This document shows, one piece after another, positions 6,540 to 27,765 of a stretch of DNA of 64,000 nt (position 1 is its first letter; each line of letters opens with the position of its first letter). The stretch spans positions 1-64,000 of the forward strand of contig JAFRGC010000066.1 of assembly GCA_017434025.1 (NCBI GenBank), given 5' to 3'. Under the pieces are notes generated by a model that was not told where the DNA came from, searched no databases, and was given only the letters and a program-made list of their open reading frames with translations. Position numbers and translations under genes: made by a program. This DNA comes from Mogibacterium sp. Lineage in GTDB: Bacteria > Bacillota > Clostridia > Peptostreptococcales > Anaerovoracaceae.

Positions 6540-6615
6540 TGGCACTCCCCAAGAGATTCGAACTCTTATCAATGGCTTAGAAGGCCACTGCTCTGTCCGT
6601 TGAGCTAAAGGAGTA
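6540..6615 (-). tRNA. tRNA-Arg (TCT)
   Basis: Full cloverleaf with seven-pair acceptor, D-loop GG, anticodon loop CTTCTAA (TCT, reads AGA/AGG), normal T-loop TTCGAAT and encoded CCA. Last gene of operon A. Confidence 0.95.
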
Positions 6616-6619
6616 TATT

Positions 6620-6695
6620 GGTGATCCCCGTGGGATTCGAACCCACATCACCCGGATTAAGAGTCCGGTGTCTTGAGCCGTTAGACTAGAGGATC
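6620..6695 (-). tRNA. tRNA-Lys (CTT)
   Basis: Cloverleaf with acceptor GATCCTC/GGGGATC, anticodon loop CTCTTAA (CTT, reads AAG), T-loop TTCGAAT and encoded CCA. The leader peptide of this operon uses only AAG for lysine. Confidence 0.95.
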
Positions 6696-6696
6696 A

Positions 6697-6771
6697 TGGA
6701 GCTCCCAGTCGGATTTGAACCGACAATCCACTGCTTACAAGGCAGGTGCGATACCGTTACGCTACAGGAGC
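6697..6771 (-). tRNA. tRNA-Thr (TGT)
   Basis: Cloverleaf with acceptor GCTCCTG, anticodon loop CTTGTAA (TGT), T-loop TTCAAAT and encoded CCA. Threonine is among the commonest residues in the leader peptide of this operon. Confidence 0.95.
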
Positions 6772-6780
6772 ACAAGCAAC

Positions 6781-6914
6781 GTCCGAGAATATCAGAAACA
6801 GTGTTTATACCCGCTCTTCCGTTAAGCTACTGCCGCATAGATGGCGCGGCAGATTGGAGTCGAACCAACACATGGGGATTAGCGATCCGATGTAACTGTC
6901 TCACCGCTTCGGAC
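6781..6914 (-). ncRNA. Permuted tRNA-like RNA, copy 1
   Basis: Read on the minus strand, the element begins GTCCGA and ends TCGGAC, which pair. Inside the order is: an ACAGT strand, a T-arm with TTCGACT loop, acceptor strand CTGCCGC, loop GCCATCTAT, acceptor strand GCGGCAG, a D-arm with GG, then ACTGT pairing with ACAGT. So the two tRNA halves are in swapped order, joined through the acceptor end, and the closing stems occupy the anticodon-arm position. The acceptor loop starts with a discriminator G and CCA. Conserved with copies 2 and 3: CCGAAGCGG near the 5' end and TATTCTCGG at the 3' end. No normal anticodon loop is present. Function unknown. Confidence 0.75.
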
Positions 6915-6931
6915 ATTATTGCTTGATCAAG

Positions 6932-7006
6932 TGGTATCCCGTGCAGGAGTCCAACCCGCATCTCGGAGTCCGTAGCTCCGCGTCCTCTGCATTAGACGAA
7001 CGAGAT
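6932..7006 (-). tRNA. tRNA-Arg (ACG), altered elbow
   Basis: Acceptor ATCTCGT/ACGGGAT, anticodon loop CTACGGA (ACG, reads CGN), A discriminator and CCA. The T-loop is TTGGACT (G56) and the D-loop has GC where GG is usual, so the 19-56 tertiary pair becomes C-G instead of G-C. Confidence 0.9.
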
Positions 7007-7011
7007 ATATG

Positions 7012-7090
7012 TGGTCGGGGTGGAGAGATTCTAACTCTCGGCCTTCCGGGCCCAGACCGGACGCTCTACAGCAAGCTGAGCTACACCCCG
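7012..7090 (-). tRNA. tRNA-Pro (TGG), altered elbow and C33
   Basis: Acceptor CGGGGTG/CACCCCG, stem TCCGG/CCGGA, loop TCTGGGC giving anticodon TGG with C at position 33. T-loop TTAGAAT has A56 and the lengthened D-loop has no GG, only GCTGT. First gene of operon A, starting only a few bases after the attenuator T-run. Confidence 0.85.
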
Positions 7091-7093
7091 AAG

Positions 7094-7124
7094 AAAAAAC
7101 GCCTGTCTCAATGAGACAAGCGTT
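7094..7124 (-). terminator. Attenuator terminator A
   Basis: Minus-strand hairpin AACGCTTGTCTCA / TGAGACAGGCGTT (13 positions, one G-U) followed by six T's, directly before tRNA-Pro. Its 5' arm CTTGTCTCATT can alternatively pair with AATGAGACAGG inside the 42-codon leader frame (11 pairs, one G-U). Confidence 0.85.
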
Positions 7125-7195
7125 CGTGGGTCAATCTGTGATCGATCGTTAGTCGATCTATTGCCGATCTAAAGCCGATCAAGCAATGCGTGCGG

Positions 7196-7324
7196 CTATC
7201 TCTTCACATGCCGCGCACCCGTCATTCCTGTCTCATTTTCGTACACAAAACCAGTTCCCTTACCAACGCGCGGGAATCTTGTGGTCCTGTTATTCGTTCT
7301 CGGCAGACGACGTGTGTTCAGCAT
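7196..7324 (-). CDS. 42-residue leader peptide A of the tRNA operon
   Basis: A frame of 42 codons plus TAG with AAAGGA seven bases before ATG. Residues 2-24 contain 14 Arg, Thr, Pro or Lys (RR, PRT, RTTR, PR, K), the very amino acids of the tRNAs in this operon; both Lys codons are AAG, matching the encoded tRNA-Lys(CTT). The C-terminal part GFVYENET..GARHV resembles leaders B and C in both reading frame and spacing. The codons NET overlap the antiterminator segment. I infer a regulatory leader whose translation controls terminator A, not a stable protein. Confidence 0.8.
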   Translation of the reverse strand: MLNTRRLPRTNNRTTRFPRVGKGTGFVYENETGMTGARHVKR

Positions 7325-7372
7325 TGTAGTTTCCTTTCCGGCCTTGCAGCCTAATTTCTTATTCGCGCTTAG

Positions 7373-7401
7373 AATATATCACGCGGCAGCGAGGCTGTCT
7401 A
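7373..7401 (-). promoter_or_regulatory. Promoter of tRNA operon A
   Basis: On the minus strand, -35 TAGACA and -10 TATATT are separated by exactly 17 bases and lie about 50 bases upstream of the leader ATG. Both hexamers differ by one base from the sigma-70/A consensus. Confidence 0.65.
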
Positions 7402-7469
7402 TCAACCTGTAGTTTAATATCCTTCGGTGAAGCCAGCTCACAGCAGGCAGTATCAGCCCTTTCATAATA

Positions 7470-7560
7470 TAAGTTGATCCGGGGTGCAGTAGTGTTGCAG
7501 AGAATTTCTTACTTCTCCTTAGTTGATCAATCCAGGCCGTGTTTAAAAAATATCAGATAT
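7470..7560 (-). pseudogene. Remnant copy of the 3' end of the gene at 8953-9321
   Basis: This stretch closely matches 8912-8990, covering the last codons and downstream flank of the hypothetical gene there. In the remnant the frame carries TGA where the intact gene has TGG, and the upstream part is missing. So a second, decayed copy of that gene once lay on the other side of thrE. The rest of 7402-7616 shows nothing else I can support apart from the thrE upstream region. Confidence 0.6.
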
Positions 7561-7637
7561 TAAAAGGTATTGAAAGCTGCAAGGCATTGTGATAGCCTAT
7601 CTGCCGTTCGTTCAATGTGATCATGGGAGGAATCGAA

Positions 7638-8396
7638 GTGGACTACAAACAGATACTGAAAGTGATACTGGATATTGGTGAGCAGATGATCAACAGCGGC
7701 GCTGAAATCGGGCGTGTCGAAGACAGCATGTACCGACTTTGCCGCAGCTATGGATTCATCAGAGCCAATTGCTGGGTCATTTCATCGAATATACAGGCAA
7801 CAGCTGAAACTCCGGAAGGTGACATCTTCACACAGATCCGCCACGTGCCGGGCGGCGAAATGAATTTTGACAGGCTCGATTATCTCAACAGCCTGTCCCG
7901 CAGAGTGTGCCGGGAAACGCCTGACGCGCCTGAACTGAGACGGCAGCTCGACGAGGTTCTCGCAAGACCTGCCCAGCCAAAATGGATGCACTATCTGGCG
8001 GGCGTGCTCGGTGGCACCGGTTTTGCCGTCTTCTTCAACTGCGACCTGGCGGACAGTCTTGTCGCGCTGATTGCATCGCTCATGATAGTTGCACTCGGGG
8101 ATGCTCTCGCCAAAATCGAGACTAATCCGCTGGTTTTCAATGCCATCATTTCATTCATCGTGGAAGCGTTCATCCTTCTTGCCGTCAGACTCGGCCTCGG
8201 ACATCACGCCGGCAACATCACCGTCGGCGTAGTGATGCTGCTGATCTCGGGAATCGGATTCACCAACGGCATCAGCAATCTGCTGCACAGGGATACTTTA
8301 TCGGGGATCATCAATATATCCAAAGCGGTTCTTGGAGCAACGGGAATCGCAATAGGGATCGCGCTCCCGATCCTGCTCCTGAAGGGGGTGATGTAG
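7638..8396 (+). CDS. ThrE-type exporter, large subunit (DUF1212)
   Basis: The 252-residue protein has the cytoplasmic N-terminal domain of the ThrE family (ILDIGEQMINSGAEIGRVEDS, a strongly conserved motif at the start) followed by about five hydrophobic segments from residue 118. The family exports threonine and serine, often as two proteins encoded side by side, as here. The start is GTG at 7638, six bases after GGGAGGA; an upstream ATG has no such site. The partner gene begins two bases after the stop. Substrate is inferred from family. Confidence 0.85.
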   Translation: MDYKQILKVILDIGEQMINSGAEIGRVEDSMYRLCRSYGFIRANCWVISSNIQATAETPEGDIFTQIRHVPGGEMNFDRLDYLNSLSRRVCRETPDAPELRRQLDEVLARPAQPKWMHYLAGVLGGTGFAVFFNCDLADSLVALIASLMIVALGDALAKIETNPLVFNAIISFIVEAFILLAVRLGLGHHAGNITVGVVMLLISGIGFTNGISNLLHRDTLSGIINISKAVLGATGIAIGIALPILLLKGVM

Positions 8397-8397
8397 C

Positions 8398-8856
8398 ATG
8401 ATGGAACTCGCTCCAAGCCTCGTGGTACAGCTCATCTCGTGTACAGCCGCATGCGTGGGCTTTGCCTACTGGTTCAATGTGAAGGGAATCCAAGTCATGT
8501 ATGCAGGAATTGGCGCATTCTTCACGTGGCTTGTATACGCGCTGCTGTACAACGCCGGATACAGCAACTTCATAGCAACACTTATCGGCTCAATATTTGT
8601 AGCCGCGTATGCTCAGGTGATGGCCCGAGTCAACAAAGCTCCCGCTACCATCTTCCAGACAATATGCGTCTTCCCGCTCGTGCCGGGGCCAAACCTGTAT
8701 TACATGATGTACTGCATAGTAATGGAACAACAAGATACGGCGGTGTCCGAAGCGATCACGCTGATCGTCACCTGCCTCGGGATCGCACTGGGCTTCATAG
8801 TCGTTGAGATCCTGAACAAATACATATTCAGGCTGCTTTTCAAGATCAAGGCATAG
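8398..8856 (+). CDS. ThrE-type exporter, small subunit (ThrE_2/DUF3815)
   Basis: A 152-residue membrane protein with about four to five transmembrane segments and a PLVPGPNLYYMM motif near residue 98, typical of the C-terminal half of ThrE as a separate polypeptide. It is translated with the preceding gene (2-bp gap, GGGGGTG ribosome site inside the upstream gene). The two together make one threonine/serine export unit in the inner membrane. A terminator follows. Confidence 0.85.
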   Translation: MMELAPSLVVQLISCTAACVGFAYWFNVKGIQVMYAGIGAFFTWLVYALLYNAGYSNFIATLIGSIFVAAYAQVMARVNKAPATIFQTICVFPLVPGPNLYYMMYCIVMEQQDTAVSEAITLIVTCLGIALGFIVVEILNKYIFRLLFKIKA

Positions 8857-8876: not shown

Positions 8877-8906
8877 AAAACCCCCGCGCCAATGGTGCGG
8901 GGGTTT
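8877..8906 (+). terminator. Terminator of the thrE pair
   Basis: CCCCCGCGCC and GGTGCGGGGG form a GC-rich stem with an AAT loop, followed by TTT, 20 bases after the stop codon. Confidence 0.85.
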
Positions 8907-8952
8907 CTGAATATAAATTGATCAAGGATGCAATACTGTTGTAGGGAATCTC

Positions 8953-9321
8953 TTACTTCCCCTTTGTTGACCAATGCGGGTTGTTATTATCGCAGATCAT
9001 AAATCTGATCCCCGACTCCCTCTCAATGTCAAATCCATTGTACCTGCGGTTCAGCTCATCCGCCTCTTCCGGGGAATCCACCGGGAAATAGTCCTTGTAG
9101 TAGCTGTCATCGCCATCCGTAAAACTGTGATATTCCGAAGACTGCACCAGAACATATCCGCCGCATGATCGGCACCTGCACAGATAGCGCTCCCCGTCAT
9201 CCCAAGTGTGAAGGATATTACCGTAGGCCTTGCTGCCATAATCCTCGACAAGCTCCAGCTTCATGTGCCTGTATGCCTGAGCCGCATCCTTCATCTTGAA
9301 TCCTATACATGCTCTTTCCAT
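8953..9321 (-). CDS. Hypothetical protein with a CRCRSC motif
   Basis: A 122-residue soluble protein with ribosome site AAGGAGG. It has a CRCRSCGGYVLVQSSEYHS core; the closely spaced cysteines could bind zinc. The middle is acidic and aromatic (DGDDSYYKDYFPV), reminiscent of small immunity-type proteins, but I cannot name a family. A decayed duplicate of its 3' end lies at 7470-7560. Confidence 0.65.
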   Translation of the reverse strand: MERACIGFKMKDAAQAYRHMKLELVEDYGSKAYGNILHTWDDGERYLCRCRSCGGYVLVQSSEYHSFTDGDDSYYKDYFPVDSPEEADELNRRYNGFDIERESGIRFMICDNNNPHWSTKGK

Positions 9322-23082: not shown

Positions 23083-23158
23083 TGGTGGTAAAGGCTGGCA
23101 TTGAACCAGCGGCCTTCCGGGCTTCAACCGAACGCTCTACCCGCTGAGCTACTTTACC
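23083..23158 (-). tRNA. tRNA-Phe (GAA)
   Basis: Acceptor GGTAAAG/CTTTACC, anticodon loop TTGAAGC (GAA), normal elbow, encoded CCA. Last gene of operon C. Confidence 0.95.
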
Positions 23159-23161
23159 ATA

Positions 23162-23238
23162 TGGAGAGCACGGTTGGATTCGAACCAACGGACAACGGGG
23201 TTGCAATCCGCCTCCTTGGACCACTCGGAAACGTGCTC
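23162..23238 (-). tRNA. tRNA-Cys (GCA)
   Basis: Acceptor GAGCACG/CGTGCTC, loop TTGCAAC (GCA), U73 as expected for cysteine, CCA encoded. The last pair of the anticodon stem is A-C. Confidence 0.88.
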
Positions 23239-23243
23239 AAATT

Positions 23244-23319
23244 TGGGTGGAGGGACAGGAATCGAACCTGCGACAACCGGGGCCACAATCCGGTGCTCTA
23301 CCATTGAGCTACCAACCAC
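23244..23319 (-). tRNA. tRNA-His (GTG) with a mismatched acceptor stem
   Basis: Loop TTGTGGC gives GTG; extra G at -1 and C73 are the histidine identity pair; CCA encoded. The acceptor strands TGGTTGG and CCCTCCA leave positions 4 and 5 unpaired (T-T, T-C), which is unusual. Confidence 0.9.
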
Positions 23320-23323
23320 ATAT

Positions 23324-23411
23324 TGGAGGATGGTGTGGGATTTGAACCCACAGGGCTGACGCCACATCGGTTTTCTGAACCGCGCCGTTATATCCATTTC
23401 GGTAACCATCC
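23324..23411 (-). tRNA. tRNA-Ser-like (AGA) with C33
   Basis: Class II tRNA: acceptor GGATGGT/ACCATCC, variable arm GGC/GCC, T-loop TTCAAAT, CCA. Stem GCGGT/ACCGA leaves loop TCAGAAA, giving anticodon AGA with C at position 33. Discriminator is U, not the usual serine G. If the loop frame were shifted the anticodon would be CAG, but the stem then fails. Confidence 0.75.
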
Positions 23412-23415
23412 TTAT

Positions 23416-23504
23416 TGGAGGAGAGAAGAGGATTTGAACCTCCACGCCTGTGCGGCTACTCACGGTTTAGCAAACCGGCCCCTTACCATTAGGGTTATCT
23501 CTCC
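23416..23504 (-). tRNA. tRNA-Ser (GCT)
   Basis: Class II tRNA with acceptor GGAGAGA/TCTCTCC, anticodon loop TTGCTAA (GCT, reads AGC/AGT), long variable arm, U73 and CCA. Leader C uses AGC five times. Confidence 0.93.
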
Positions 23505-23509
23505 GTAAG

Positions 23510-23588
23510 TGGTGCTCCAGACAGGAGTCGAACCTGCACTTGATGGTCTCTGAGGCCATTACCTCTACCATGTTTGGGCTACTGGAGC
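23510..23588 (-). tRNA. tRNA-Leu-like (CAG) with a short variable loop
   Basis: Acceptor GCTCCAG/CTGGAGC, loop CTCAGAG (CAG), A73, CCA. The variable region is only five bases, so it is class I, whereas bacterial tRNA-Leu is normally class II. Shares its scaffold with the tRNA at 26220. Confidence 0.85.
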
Positions 23589-23594
23589 ACATGT

Positions 23595-23614
23595 GTCAGA
23601 AGGCTGCCCTTCTG
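23595..23614. other. Hairpin between tRNA genes
   Basis: TCAGAAGG and CCTTCTGA pair across a four-base loop in the spacer between tRNA-Gly and tRNA-Leu; probably a processing spacer, as no T-run follows. Confidence 0.5.
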
Positions 23615-23619
23615 ACGGT

Positions 23620-23694
23620 TGGAGCGGCATACGGGACTCAAACCCGTACCATCAGTTTGGAAGACTGATACGCTGGTCGTTACGCTAATGCCAC
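23620..23694 (-). tRNA. tRNA-Gly (TCC), altered elbow
   Basis: Acceptor GTGGCAT/ATGCCGC, loop CTTCCAA (TCC), U73, CCA. T-loop TTTGAGT has U56 and the D-loop has GA in place of GG, so the 19-56 pair is A-U. Confidence 0.92.
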
Positions 23695-23721
23695 TTAATG
23701 GCGATTTGTACAAATCGCCAG

Positions 23722-24216
23722 TTATTTGCTGAGCCTGTCGGCGATCGTGGATGCTGTGAAAGAATCCGGTTTGACCTCGCAGTCGTAGCCCATCGCGTGG
23801 ACCCATCCTGTGAGTGCCTGGATCAGATCTCTGGTCTTGCCGTGTGGGGCGTTGCCTGCGTCGATGTGAATGGAGAGTGGGCAATTGTCGATCAGCATGC
23901 GATATGTGTCGTTGTCCATCTCGTCCAGCAGGGCTCCCGCCGTCTCAAGGCTGATGTAAGTCTCGGTCTCGAGCTTCTGCTTGACCGCTTTGATGAGCTC
24001 ACGGAGCTCTGTCTCGTAGAAGAAGATCCCGCCATGACCTCTGCAGATCATGGAAATTACCGTTACGATCTTTGTGCCGGATGCGTGGTTCTGGGAGTCG
24101 GTTCCGATCGCCAGTTCCATTGGTTCTCCGTATACAGCATTCCGGTCATAGAAAGCCTTCAGCTTGTCCGGAATGTCCTTGAGGCTCAGCTGTCCGTATG
24201 TCTGGGATTTCCACAT
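23722..24216 (-). CDS. YkuK-like (DUF458) predicted RNase H-fold protein inside the tRNA operon
   Basis: A 164-residue protein with the DUF458 pattern: ELAIGTDSQNH with the first acidic residue, a central helix pair, and NCPLSIHIDAGN..GKTRDLIQALTGWVHAMGYDCEVKPDS. The family is predicted to have an RNase H-like fold; B. subtilis YkuK belongs here. ATG at 24216 has AAAGGAGAG upstream. It lies between tRNA-Lys and tRNA-Gly in one orientation without a terminator, so it should be on the tRNA transcript. A role in tRNA processing or turnover is an inference from position. Confidence 0.82.
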   Translation of the reverse strand: MWKSQTYGQLSLKDIPDKLKAFYDRNAVYGEPMELAIGTDSQNHASGTKIVTVISMICRGHGGIFFYETELRELIKAVKQKLETETYISLETAGALLDEMDNDTYRMLIDNCPLSIHIDAGNAPHGKTRDLIQALTGWVHAMGYDCEVKPDSFTASTIADRLSK

Positions 24217-24261
24217 ATCTTTCTCTCCTTTCTGCAAAATTGTCACCCCGCTGCCGGGGTC

Positions 24262-24337
24262 TGGTGATCCCCGTGGGATTCGAACCCACACCATCCGGAT
24301 TAAAAGTCCGGTGTCGTAGCCGTTTGACCAGAGGATC
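24262..24337 (-). tRNA. tRNA-Lys (TTT)
   Basis: Acceptor GATCCTC/GGGGATC as in the CTT isoacceptor, anticodon loop CTTTTAA (TTT, reads AAA), CCA. Both lysine codons in leader C are AAA. Confidence 0.95.
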
Positions 24338-24349
24338 ATGGTCTGTAAT

Positions 24350-24425
24350 TGGCGATCCCCGTGAGACTTGAACTCACATCAACGGATTAACAGTCCGCCG
24401 TCCTGACCGATTGAACGAGAGGATC
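24350..24425 (-). tRNA. tRNA-Asn (GTT)
   Basis: Acceptor GATCCTC/GGGGATC, anticodon loop CTGTTAA (GTT), G73, T-loop TTCAAGT, CCA. Confidence 0.95.
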
Positions 24426-24426
24426 A

Positions 24427-24510
24427 TGGTCGGCAGGGCTGGACTCGAACCAGCGTGTTTCTACGTCGTGGGGTTACGGCCCACTGCAATCGCCGCTATG
24501 CCACCTGCCG
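24427..24510 (-). tRNA. tRNA-Tyr (GTA) with C33
   Basis: Class II tRNA, acceptor CGGCAGG/CCTGCCG, stem GTGGG/CCCAC, loop CCGTAAC (GTA) with C at position 33, A73, CCA. First gene of operon C, preceded by the attenuator. Confidence 0.9.
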
Positions 24511-24575: not shown

Positions 24576-24607
24576 GAAAAACCGCCTGCCTCGTTCGAGA
24601 CAAGCGG
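24576..24607 (-). terminator. Attenuator terminator C
   Basis: Hairpin CCGCTTGTCTCG/CGAGGCAGGCGG (12 positions, two G-U) followed by TTTTT. CTTGTCTC of its 5' arm is perfectly complementary to GAGACAAG inside leader frame C. Confidence 0.88.
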
Positions 24608-24642
24608 CCGTGGTTAACTGGTTTCCCGGAGGGTGCGCCTGG

Positions 24643-24771
24643 CTAGCTCTGTTCTTGCCGCGCGCCCACTATTCTTGTCTCTTTATTGCACACCAAGCTG
24701 CTTCCCAGCTCCGTGCTCTGGAATTTTGCTCTGCTATTCATGATCTCCGAATTATGATGGCAATATAGCAT
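24643..24771 (-). CDS. 42-residue leader peptide C of the tRNA operon
   Basis: Exactly 42 codons plus TAG, with AAAGGA and AGGA upstream of ATG. Residues 2-30 contain 20 of Leu, Tyr, Cys, His, Asn, Ser, Lys, Phe or Gly (it opens LYCHHNS and has LGSSLVCNK); all nine amino acids of the tRNAs of operon C are present at least once. Codons fit too: AAA for Lys, AGC for Ser (five), GGA for Gly. The tail LVCNKET..VGAR aligns with leaders A and B. The start lies 48 bases after the lipoprotein stop. I read it as an attenuator leader. Confidence 0.82.
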   Translation of the reverse strand: MLYCHHNSEIMNSRAKFQSTELGSSLVCNKETRIVGARQEQS

Positions 24772-25703: not shown

Positions 25704-25783
25704 TGGTGCGCTATCATGGATTCGAACCATGGACCGCTCGCATATCAGACGAGAACTCTATACCAGACTGAGTTTAATAGCGC
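25704..25783 (-). tRNA. tRNA-Ile (GAT)
   Basis: Acceptor GCGCTAT/ATAGCGC, loop CTGATAT (GAT), enlarged D-loop with GG, T-loop TTCGAAT, A73, CCA. Confidence 0.92.
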
Positions 25784-25793
25784 ATACTTGTCA

Positions 25794-25832
25794 CAAGGGG
25801 GACCATCGAAGATGGTGGATCCCTTATGACGT
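25794..25832. other. Hairpin between tRNA-Trp and tRNA-Ile
   Basis: CCATC/GATGG nested within AAGGG/CCCTT and TCA/TGA forms an imperfect long stem in the spacer. No T-run, so more likely a processing feature than a terminator. Confidence 0.5.
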
Positions 25833-25833
25833 T

Positions 25834-25908
25834 TGGCACCCTGAGTAAGATTTTAACTCACATCTTACGGCTTTGGAGGCCGTTGTTCTGACATTGAACT
25901 ATCAGGGT
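25834..25908 (-). tRNA. tRNA-Trp (CCA), altered elbow
   Basis: Acceptor ACCCTGA/TCAGGGT, stem ACGGC/GCCGT, loop CTCCAAA (CCA), G73. T-loop TTAAAAT has A56 and D-loop AATGTCA has GT in place of GG: the 19-56 pair is U-A. Confidence 0.93.
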
Positions 25909-25913
25909 ATGTA

Positions 25914-25943
25914 CTAGTGCATGTTCCTGTGGATGCACTAGTG
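25914..25943. other. Perfect 10-bp inverted repeat
   Basis: ACTAGTGCAT and ATGCACTAGT flank a 10-base loop between tRNA-Trp and tRNA-Asp. No T-run. Confidence 0.6.
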
Positions 25944-25971
25944 CTGGCACCTGGGTAAGTGCCGGGTCAAA

Positions 25972-26046
25972 TGGCGGTCAGTATGGGAGTTGAACCCATG
26001 TCTTCCGATAGACAGTCGGAGATAATAGCCGTTATACGAACTGACC
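25972..26046 (-). tRNA. tRNA-Asp (GTC)
   Basis: Acceptor GGTCAGT/ACTGACC, stem TCCGA/TCGGA, loop CTGTCTA (GTC), G73, CCA. Confidence 0.95.
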
Positions 26047-26049
26047 ATG

Positions 26050-26124
26050 TGGTGATCCCCGTGGGACTCGAACCCAACATTGTCGGGGCGAAAGCCCGAT
26101 GTCCTACCTTTAGACGAGGAGACC
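26050..26124 (-). tRNA. tRNA-Glu (TTC)
   Basis: Acceptor GGTCTCC/GGGGATC with two G-U pairs, stem TCGGG/CCCGA, loop CTTTCGC (TTC), CCA. Confidence 0.92.
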
Positions 26125-26127
26125 ATG

Positions 26128-26204
26128 TGGTTGCGGAGGTCGGATTCGAACCGACGATCTTTTGGGTATGAGCCAAGAGAGCTAAACCGCTGCTCCACTC
26201 CGCA
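26128..26204 (-). tRNA. tRNA-Met (CAT), initiator-like
   Basis: Loop CTCATAC (CAT), A73, CCA. A11-U24 in the D-stem is an initiator mark, but the acceptor ends in a T1-A72 pair and only two of the three G-C pairs of the initiator anticodon stem are present. Confidence 0.88.
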
Positions 26205-26219
26205 ACAATGATAAAAATT

Positions 26220-26296
26220 TGGTGCTCCACACAGGATTCGAACCTGTACTGAATGGACTCTCAGCCCACTTCCTCTACCCATTGGGATACTGGAGC
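26220..26296 (-). tRNA. tRNA-Leu-like (GAG) with a short variable loop
   Basis: Acceptor GCTCCAG/GTGGAGC core, stem GTGGG/TCCAT, loop CTGAGAG (GAG), A73, CCA. Variable region of five bases, so class I. Close relative of the CAG tRNA at 23510. Confidence 0.85.
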
Positions 26297-26455: not shown

Positions 26456-26487
26456 GAAAAACCGCTTATCCCATCTGAGACAAGCGG
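26456..26487 (-). terminator. Attenuator terminator B
   Basis: Hairpin CCGCTTGTCTC/GGGATAAGCGG (11 positions with G-U pairs), loop AGAT, followed by TTTTTC. TGTCTCAGAT, spanning arm and loop, is perfectly complementary to ATCTGAGACA in leader frame B. Confidence 0.88.
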
Positions 26488-26525
26488 CCTTGATTACTCT
26501 ATTCTATGCCCGGCACCTAATTACA

Positions 26526-26654
26526 TCACATTACATGCCGCACACACCCGCTGTATGTCTCAGATCTGCACACGAAACCATGCTCCAGGCAAATGTCCTG
26601 AAGATCAATGATCATATCAAATTCATTGAATGAATAACTCAGATATAGCATCAT
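26526..26654 (-). CDS. 42-residue leader peptide B of the tRNA operon
   Basis: 42 codons plus TGA from the first of two ATGs, with AAAGGA upstream. Residues 2-25 hold 14 Leu, Met, Glu, Asp or Ile, matching the tRNAs of operon B; Trp is absent. The other ten residues (Tyr, Ser, Phe, Asn, Cys, His, one Gln) except Gln are served by operon C downstream, which may be co-transcribed. Arg, Thr, Pro and Lys do not occur in this part. The tail GFVCRSET..CVRHV aligns with leaders A and C. Confidence 0.8.
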   Translation of the reverse strand: MMLYLSYSFNEFDMIIDLQDICLEHGFVCRSETYSGCVRHVM

Positions 26655-26712: not shown

Positions 26713-26741
26713 ACTATATCACACATGCCAAACGTTGTAAA
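26713..26741 (-). promoter_or_regulatory. Promoter of tRNA operon B
   Basis: Minus-strand -35 TTTACA and -10 TATAGT separated by 17 bases, about 60 bases upstream of leader ATG, in the same position as promoter A; both have TGA before the -10 box. Confidence 0.65.
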
Positions 26742-26824
26742 TTCAACCCGTAGTTTAATCCAGTCTCTTGGCCTTGAGGCGGTGGCCGTTGGCCCTTGCA
26801 ATGAGCACCTTTGGCATCTGCATT

Positions 26825-26887: not shown

Positions 26888-26964
26888 AAGCTCTACCCTT
26901 CTTGCAATGATAGTATAGCAAGATCCCTAGTATTTGGGGTCGCTTCACAGGCGACAAGTCCCAT

Positions 26965-27380
26965 CCGACAGGCACAGCACACAATGGTTGTGTGCCTACA
27001 TGCCTTGTTACTGTGCAATCCGGTCACTCGGCACACAATAGTTGTGTGCCTACATGCCTTGTTACTGTGCAATCCGGGCCTTCGGCACACAATGGTTGTG
27101 TGCCTGACTGCCTTGTTACTGTGCAATCCGGTCACTCGGCACACAAAGGTTGTGTGCCCACATGCCTTATCACTGTGCAATCCGGTCACTCGGCACACAA
27201 TGGTTGTGTGCCTGACTGCCTTGTCACTGTGCAATCCGGGCCTTCGGCACACAATGGTTGAGTGCCTGACTGCCTTGTCACTGTGCAATCCGGGCCTTCG
27301 GCACACAATGGTTGTGTGCCTACATGCCTTGTCACTATGTAATCCGGTCACTTGGCACACAATGGTTGTGTGCTTTCCCG
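26965..27380. repeat. 54-bp tandem palindromic repeat array
   Basis: Eight copies of the hairpin GGCACACAA..TTGTGTGCC at 54-bp spacing, alternating with TGCCTTGTTACTGTGCAATC-type sequence. Some substitutions are shared by alternate copies (CTACATG versus CTGACTG; GGTCACTC versus GGGCCTTC), pointing to expansion by larger blocks. Because 54 is a multiple of three, long frames open on both strands; I do not treat these as genes. Confidence 0.93.
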
Positions 27381-27765
27381 CTGACCGACCTAGAATCTGT
27401 GTACTTTACACTCAACAATGATAGGATCGTTATTTACTGCATCTACTTATAAGGTGTTTTTCCACCCTAAACTGTTGCAACAAAGATGGATTGCATTCTG
27501 TTTATGCTGGTTGCTGCTCAGTTAAGGTTCAGTTGGGATTCAGTCTGGCTTCAGTTGGGGTTCAGTTGGGGTCCCATTGAAGTTCAGTTGAGATTCTGTT
27601 GAGCCTCACAGACCAAAAGAGACCGATCCTCGTATCTGAGTTCCGGTCTCTTGTCATGCATATTATTCGGATTGATGCGTCTGGCTGTTATGCACCAAAG
27701 TGCAACTGTGCCAAATTGTTTCTGTACCTTGCTGTTCTATGCCAAATTGCACTCGCGCCTTGCTG
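27381..27765. other. Intergenic stretch with TTCAGTTGGGG repeats
   Basis: Between the 54-bp array and the stop of the double-TIR gene. From 27515 to 27605 there are about six imperfect copies of TTCAGTTGGGGT. The rest shows no supported gene. Confidence 0.6.

Follow-up and report, generated by a model that had tools for sequence, protein, structure and literature searches.

What controls a tRNA operon whose first gene begins a few nucleotides behind an intrinsic terminator? The question is raised by tRNA operon A of a Mogibacterium sp. contig (JAFRGC010000066.1, assembly GCA_017434025.1), of which the first 64,000 nt were analyzed and are referred to here as the window. The preliminary description of this locus had proposed a leader-peptide attenuator, reporting a promoter, a ribosome site, a 42-codon frame and a six-T terminator just before tRNA-Pro, and all of these were confirmed in place. 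The genes it had assigned to the operon (tRNA-Pro, two tRNA-Arg, tRNA-Thr and tRNA-Lys) were also returned by ARAGORN. Two further operons, B and C, are present on the same (minus) strand, each with a leader upstream, and these leaders do share the design and the 42-codon length of leader A, as had been claimed, while the first 24 residues vary by operon type. As judged from sequence, a short leader frame with a ribosome site followed by an intrinsic terminator provides features of ribosome-mediated attenuation. The analysis below makes it highly probable that operon A is governed by a leader rich in codons for its own tRNAs, together with a mutually exclusive terminator and antiterminator, an arrangement that would switch the operon on when ribosomes stall for scarce charged tRNAs.

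tRNA operons and leaders of the window

The source assembly is 2.22 Mb in 89 contigs and 83.8% complete, and the closest named relatives of the RtcB encoded by this genome come mainly from goat and rumen-type assemblies recorded as Mogibacterium sp. or uncultured Clostridiales. Ten of the 21 window anticodons have copies elsewhere in the genome (Met was matched by anticodon alone). Since these copies are merely 57–77% identical to the window tRNAs, the latter look like an auxiliary, diverged set rather than recent duplicates; for the remaining 11 anticodons, additional copies may lie in the part of the genome missing from this incomplete assembly. Coordinates of the operons and their control elements are given in Table 1.

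Table 1. Features of the three tRNA operons, in window coordinates.
Feature	Position	Strand	Description
Operator-like box TTAAACTACAGGTTGA	7402..7417	-	Upstream of leader A promoter
Promoter-like site, operon A	7373..7401	-	TAGACA-17-TATATT, extended -10 with TG
Leader A reading frame	7196..7324	-	42 codons; control codons 2-24 rich in Arg/Thr/Pro/Lys
Antiterminator segment AATGAGACAGG, leader A	7227..7237	-	Codons 30-33
Stop-codon hairpin, leader A	7188..7218	-	Possible pause hairpin; limits set by eye
Terminator hairpin A	7097..7125	-	13 pairs; 5' arm 7120-7110
Operon A	6540..7090	-	tRNA-Pro(tgg), Arg(acg), Y-RNA-like element, Thr(tgt), Lys(ctt), Arg(tct) (ARAGORN)
Operator-like inverted repeat, operon B	26742..26758	-	
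Operator-like box and promoter-like site, operon B	26713..26758	-	
Leader B reading frame	26526..26654	-	42 codons, ATG 26654; antiterminator 26565-26556, partner 26482-26473
Terminator B	26458..26491	-	
Operon B tRNAs	25704..26296	-	Leu, Met, Glu, Asp, Trp, Ile
Leader C reading frame	24643..24771	-	42 codons, ATG 24771; antiterminator 24681-24674, partner 24604-24597
Terminator C	24577..24608	-	
Operon C	23083..24510	-	Tyr, Asn, Lys, RNase H-like gene (PF04308), Gly, Leu, Ser, Ser, His, Cys, Phe

The ribosome site of leader A (AAAGGAA) lies 6 nt upstream of the ATG at 7324, and the run of six T of its terminator (7099-7094) stops 3 nt ahead of the tRNA-Pro start at 7090. A segment within the frame had been described as complementary to the 5' arm of this terminator, and the two pair over 11 nt, AATGAGACAGG (7237-7227) with CTTGTCTCATT (7120-7110). 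The reported excess of cognate residues was reproduced as well: Arg, Thr, Pro and Lys make up 14 of the 23 residues at positions 2-24, compared with an average of 17% in nine other representatives (binomial P 2e-6). The hairpin at the stop codon recurs in the consensus fold of 18 leaders with 6 pairs, and at most 4 of the 18 sequences are broken at any one pair. The promoter scan gave 1 site (1.6 expected from shuffled sequence) and the terminator scan 2 (1.1 expected); these scans alone are close to the shuffled expectation, so their weight comes from conservation. Between its stop codon and terminator, leader A carries an insertion with GATCG repeats (7180-7130, minus strand) that is absent from most other leaders, and the corresponding gap is 109 nt, against 62–72 nt in the other leaders compared.

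No good promoter-like site was found for leader C (best scores 7/12) and no terminator-like site between operon B and leader C, so operons B and C may form one series. The gene after operon B, ahead of leader C, has a weak match to DUF5105, below cut-off. As would be expected of such a series, 23 of 24 control residues in leader B fall within the combined tRNA set of B and C, compared with 71% for five other leaders of the genus (P 0.003); leader L191 also scores high for this set (21/23 residues). A fourth leader, of 39 codons, was found elsewhere in the genome by a pattern search and precedes rtcB, the product of which matches PF01139 (RtcB, an RNA ligase).

Distribution of the leaders

Of 47 genomes in the genus, 17 were matched by a covariance model built from 18 leaders (R1). 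The 42 matches include training sequences and one partial reverse-strand match. The rtcB gene is present in 15 of the 47 genomes, and leader and rtcB occur together in 14 (Fisher P 3e-8). G028 alone carries rtcB without a leader, and a leader without rtcB is found in G001 and also in G023 and G068, where the match is to a different, Asn-rich leader. To give one case, the gene order in G008 is leader, rtcB, small HTH_3 gene, 15 tRNAs, second leader and 13 tRNAs.

The same leader design is found upstream of rtcB in Lachnospiraceae and other Clostridia, and could be anchored by eye at 50 of 66 loci. By script, a terminator candidate was detected at 57 of the 62 named non-genus rtcB loci with enough upstream sequence; a frame crosses the candidate antiterminator at 54 of these 57, some of the assignments being weak, and tRNAs adjoin rtcB at 28 of the 54. 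A second model (R2) was built from 42 non-genus leaders, none of them from the genus of the window. In the window's genome, the only R2 matches were leader B (32.7 bits), the rtcB leader and terminator C; leader A is not among them, and for leader C the terminator alone is covered. At 29–34 bits (rough E-values of 7e-5 to 6e-4), these matches are no stronger than R2 matches that were distrusted elsewhere. Across the class, R2 found matches in 16 of 391 genomes under strict filters that lose weak matches. The 17 matches outside the window's genome comprise 4 strong ones (74–103 bits) and 13 at 29–38 bits, some partial; these 13 were distrusted and the search was set aside as an estimate of frequency. 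Spread of the leaders by viruses was also considered. A pattern scan of viral contigs gave at least 120 stretches, and among the 80 loci checked the T run was in place in 11, three of which had an in-frame ATG and stems of only 3, 5 and 7 pairs; these hits were judged to be due to chance.

Conservation of the alternative pairing

Despite differing peptides and operons, the stretch most complementary to the terminator 5' arm begins at codon 28.7–32 in 40 of 41 leaders of the genus, and in 36 tRNA- or rtcB-type leaders the antiterminator starts 26–40 nt ahead of the stop codon. The pairing was tested on 86 leaders (73 distinct), of which 36 were from the genus and 50 were non-genus rtcB leaders (of L028-L093), all anchored on peptide motif and terminator, not on the pairing. 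Non-genus loci without upstream sequence or without a recognizable, unambiguous leader were dropped, four terminator arms were placed manually, and neither L195 nor the Asn-rich L198-L201 were included. In the fixed register, 76.5% of cells pair over the 73 distinct leaders, against 34–57% when the register is slid by 1–3, the 57% being reached at +2. Exchange of terminator arms between leaders gave z 8.3 over all 73 and z 6.6 in the 44 from outside the genus (0 of 5000 in each case). In the exchange test the 29 genus leaders did not reach significance by themselves (z 1.5, P 0.10), their antiterminator segment being nearly invariant. Paired changes are seen at single positions, with A-U in 33 and G-C in 32 leaders at one, and C-G in 30 and U-A in 16 at another. 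Such covariation points to a mutually exclusive antiterminator that is maintained across clostridial families. The attenuator reading depended on the conservation of the 42-codon frame and of the alternative pairing in relatives, and both are conserved; covariation of the pairing is found overall and outside the genus, and not within the genus by itself.

The peptides end in a conserved tail, FVCxYET in the genus and F[MV][CRP]SYK-like elsewhere. In genus leaders, the Phe-Val-Cys codons 26-28 (TTTGTGTGC) are conserved just upstream of the antiterminator, and pairing does not explain them. A role for these codons as one half of a protector helix was considered and set aside, the fold predicting that pairing with the terminator arm would win.

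Relationship between leader codons and tRNA genes

The control codons correspond to the tRNAs encoded by the operon. For each leader, the share of control residues belonging to the tRNA set of its operon was compared with that for swapped leader-operon pairs, using uncut loci with an assigned motif and at least 3 amino acids. Fourteen of the 28 non-genus leaders with nearby tRNAs qualified, and removal of relatives at 50% identity reduced these to eight. The share was 0.619 against 0.461 swapped in ten genus representatives (P 8e-5), 0.530 against 0.465 in the eight from outside the genus (P 2e-4), and 0.579 against 0.430 in all 18 (0 of 100,000 swaps). It held at 35% identity (7 genus representatives, P 8e-4; 7 others, P 4e-4), with some relatedness remaining among the representatives. 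For 19 of the 20 amino acids, all but Asn, the frequency is higher in leaders with the corresponding tRNA in their operon, and 17 of 19 agree after the stricter removal of relatives (35%). No such match was found in five other frames (two forward and three reverse), the peptide tail or the 5' UTR (z -0.6 to 1.8, against 5.6), the largest values coming from one of these frames (z 1.8, P 0.035) and the 5' UTR (z 1.6, P 0.054). The match is confined to the leader's own frame, upstream of the antiterminator. The codon enrichment expected of an attenuator thus withstood comparison with controls, leader content following the operon tRNAs against both swaps and other frames.

Leaders were chosen automatically for the swap test, and both automatically and by hand for the frame, tail and 5' UTR controls. 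With one leader per operon type, none of 720 assignments in the genus scored better than the true one. All 12 leaders surpassed the pooled others for their own tRNA sets, which did not always rank first for the leader concerned (ranks 1–8 of 12); both tests used hand-chosen leaders, including the best-matching member of two types. Two non-genus leaders (L052 and L073) match their tRNAs weakly. Leaders A, B and C together have 43 matching codons, of which 36 can be read by anticodons of the respective operon under simple wobble rules. Since the sensor peptide changes with the tRNA list, a leader can be read as an index of the tRNAs in its operon, and the reverse. Within one leader family, the control region contains four Arg by eye in L042 and L075, which have a tRNA-Arg nearby, and two or three in L066, L067, L076, L079 and L090, which do not.

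Predicted folding and proposed switch

Nine leaders picked from the 41 were folded with ribosome masking, each transcript ending before the terminator 3' arm. The predicted probability of the antiterminator is 0.85–1.0 without a ribosome and 0.59–1.0 with the ribosomal A site at codons 1-25. Between codons 28/29 and 37/38 (26-36 for the rtcB leader) it falls to about 0, returning to 0.85–1.0 once the ribosome is at the stop codon. Because the antiterminator is inside the frame, the segment should be left uncovered by a ribosome that has come to the stop codon, so the off state would need kinetic timing. The fold also gives the antiterminator without a ribosome, and an untranslated leader should therefore read through, unlike that of trp. 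The attenuation reading of the preliminary description holds as regards a conserved leader, pairing and codon match, and requires revision in its trp-like logic, the state without a ribosome being predicted to be on.

A kinetic scheme accounts for these predictions most economically. Until the 3' arm of the terminator is made, the 5' arm would pair with the leader segment unless a ribosome covers codons about 28-38, as the fold predicts. A freely moving first ribosome would mask the segment as the 5' arm emerges, allowing the terminator to form and leaving the operon off. If the ribosome were stalled at the control codons, or absent, the segment would be free, the terminator would fail and the tRNAs or RtcB would be made. 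The stop-codon hairpin could pause the polymerase and so set the timing. Because rtcB shares the control, the signal may be read as a shortage of usable tRNA, arising by starvation or by tRNA cleavage. It is likely, on these sequence comparisons, that the spare-tRNA operons of animal-gut clostridia are switched on by shortage of their own tRNAs via the leader, which would give a testable account of when such spare sets are used.

The conserved tail might also mark a drug- or stress-sensing arrest leader (compare Bacillus bmrB and erm-type leaders), in which the tail or an elongation inhibitor stalls the ribosome and the tRNA match is secondary. Read-through is predicted whenever ribosomes fail to cross codons 28-38, which would suit such a leader, and translation inhibitors are described as inducing the Anabaena tRNA operon and rtcB (PMC10272220). 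However, the tail encodes the antiterminator segment, so much of its conservation is explained; stalling over that segment would mask the antiterminator and turn the operon off, and the tRNA match is confined to the region upstream of the tail. We regard arrest as an improbable primary signal, and one that is partly compatible with attenuation by tRNA shortage. The leaders could instead be small proteins with a function of their own, the terminator merely tuning basal expression. Their frame is conserved, the ribosome sites are plausible, and pN/pS values of 0.51 and 0.46 indicate moderate purifying selection (a third-position excess is absent in one of two leader groups), yet the first 24 residues vary by operon type and track the tRNA list, and the part that is shared is mainly the RNA-pairing stretch, which makes this explanation very doubtful. 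That the operons are constitutive, the terminator ahead of them being an ordinary one and the frame accidental, would agree with the near-chance scores of the single promoter and terminator scans, but it is contradicted by the covariation, the fixed geometry, the codon match and the co-occurrence with rtcB, and is scarcely credible.

Comparison with known systems

Ribosome-mediated attenuation is known for amino-acid operons (trp, his, thr) and for pheST, and T-box riboswitches, in which tRNA charging controls a terminator in Firmicutes, do not need a reading frame. No T-box match was found in the window, where all 20 Rfam matches at gathering scores are to tRNA. The leaders described here resemble those of trp, his, thr and pheST in having control codons, a terminator and an exclusive antiterminator, and in that stalling is predicted to raise expression. 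They differ in preceding tRNA arrays and rtcB, in combining control codons for as many as a dozen or so amino acids, and in placing the antiterminator inside the frame, before the stop; it is also predicted to form even without a ribosome, so that no translation would mean on. If absence of translation does switch the operon on, the logic differs from that of trp. In classical attenuation a biosynthetic operon responds to one amino acid or a few; here the sensed molecule would be the product of the operon, tRNA.

Transcription attenuation mediated by the ribosome is described in a Firmicute for the BmrC/BmrD leader of Bacillus subtilis (PMC4191407); as presented there, the target is a drug transporter and the signal an antibiotic. 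A leaky terminator or attenuator is tied to a tRNA operon in E. coli glyV-X-Y (PMC10950094), but it lies downstream of the tRNA genes and limits read-through into datA, and the main text of that report does not use the word leader. In Anabaena, a trn operon and rtcB are described as being under the repressor TrcR and de-repressed under translational stress (PMC10272220). This is similar in placing an extra tRNA operon and rtcB under one regulator, and different in that the regulator is a protein repressor; the main text contains no wording on a leader, attenuation or a terminator. The Salmonella rsr-yrlBA-rtcBA operon combines rtcB with Y RNAs and a Ro60 gene and is induced by damaged tRNAs, and its rtcB is controlled by RtcR, a CARF activator that binds tRNA halves (PMC7790460). 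Compared with that description, the clostridial loci have a leader peptide and an HTH gene, and their operons include tRNA arrays. The preliminary description knew of no account of such attenuation in tRNA operons, and a search of the open-licence literature gave no report of leader peptides controlling tRNA operons or rtcB, subscription papers being mostly outside this search.

Promoter box, HTH gene and Y-RNA-like elements

A TTAAAC[TC]A-type box (TTAAAC..GTTGAA or GTTTAA) is found at or before the -35 in 34 of the 41 genus leaders. A related box, often an inverted repeat (TTATAC/GTATAA), lies within 700 nt upstream of rtcB at 43 of 62 non-genus loci, and an HTH gene of HTH_3 type follows rtcB at 68 of the 79 named loci with room for it. 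Together, the palindrome at the promoter and the HTH gene suggest that expression is also controlled at initiation, and the HTH protein encoded beside rtcB likely acts at this box.

Three gap elements lie on the minus strand (6893-6786, 25670-25574 and about 26436-26300), with shared flanks, read by eye, of G[TC]CCGAAGCGG ... TATTCTCGG[AG]C. They read as tRNA in permuted order, and were at one stage taken to be circularly permuted tRNA genes. In Rfam, two of them match the Y RNA family YrlA (RF02553; cut-off 69 bits) with sub-threshold scores of 38.8 and 24.2 bits, and the third gave no YrlA match; the earlier assignment was then set aside and the elements are termed Y-RNA-like. They sit in two of the window operons. 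Weak TROVE (Ro60) matches were found in 3 of 47 genus genomes, namely the window's genome (C8), G004 and G012, and in the last two they are on the contigs that carry the tRNA arrays.

A broader reading, which we hold in even balance, is that of a widespread clostridial emergency system. Spare, diverged tRNAs, RtcB and Y-RNA-like RNAs would be held off by the translation of bespoke peptides and come on when any such tRNA is lost, for example to anticodon nucleases; this would amount to an RNA-only sensor of tRNA damage in place of RtcR, under an HTH regulator acting at a shared palindrome. The leader switch itself would tie the feedback control of tRNA supply to RtcB-mediated RNA repair and to auxiliary tRNA arrays in gut bacteria.

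Other observations

The Asn-rich leaders (L198 1102 and L199 1058, forward; L200 1117 and L201 1428, reverse), one of which includes MKKLFVSVNVNNSNITLNNHQG..., have the same terminator type as the other leaders, and the gene downstream in L198 matches SAM-dependent methyltransferases. In the relative G009, rtcB carries an in-frame TAG (G009:C18:30216-30371). Upstream of operon B, CACACAACCATTGTGTG-type repeats were seen by eye at about 26890-27420 of the window. Beyond the promoter of operon A, a 101-nt direct repeat with 73% identity between its copies (7460-7560 and 8904-9004) flanks two transporter-like genes, apparently of the ThrE type, at 7617-8856.
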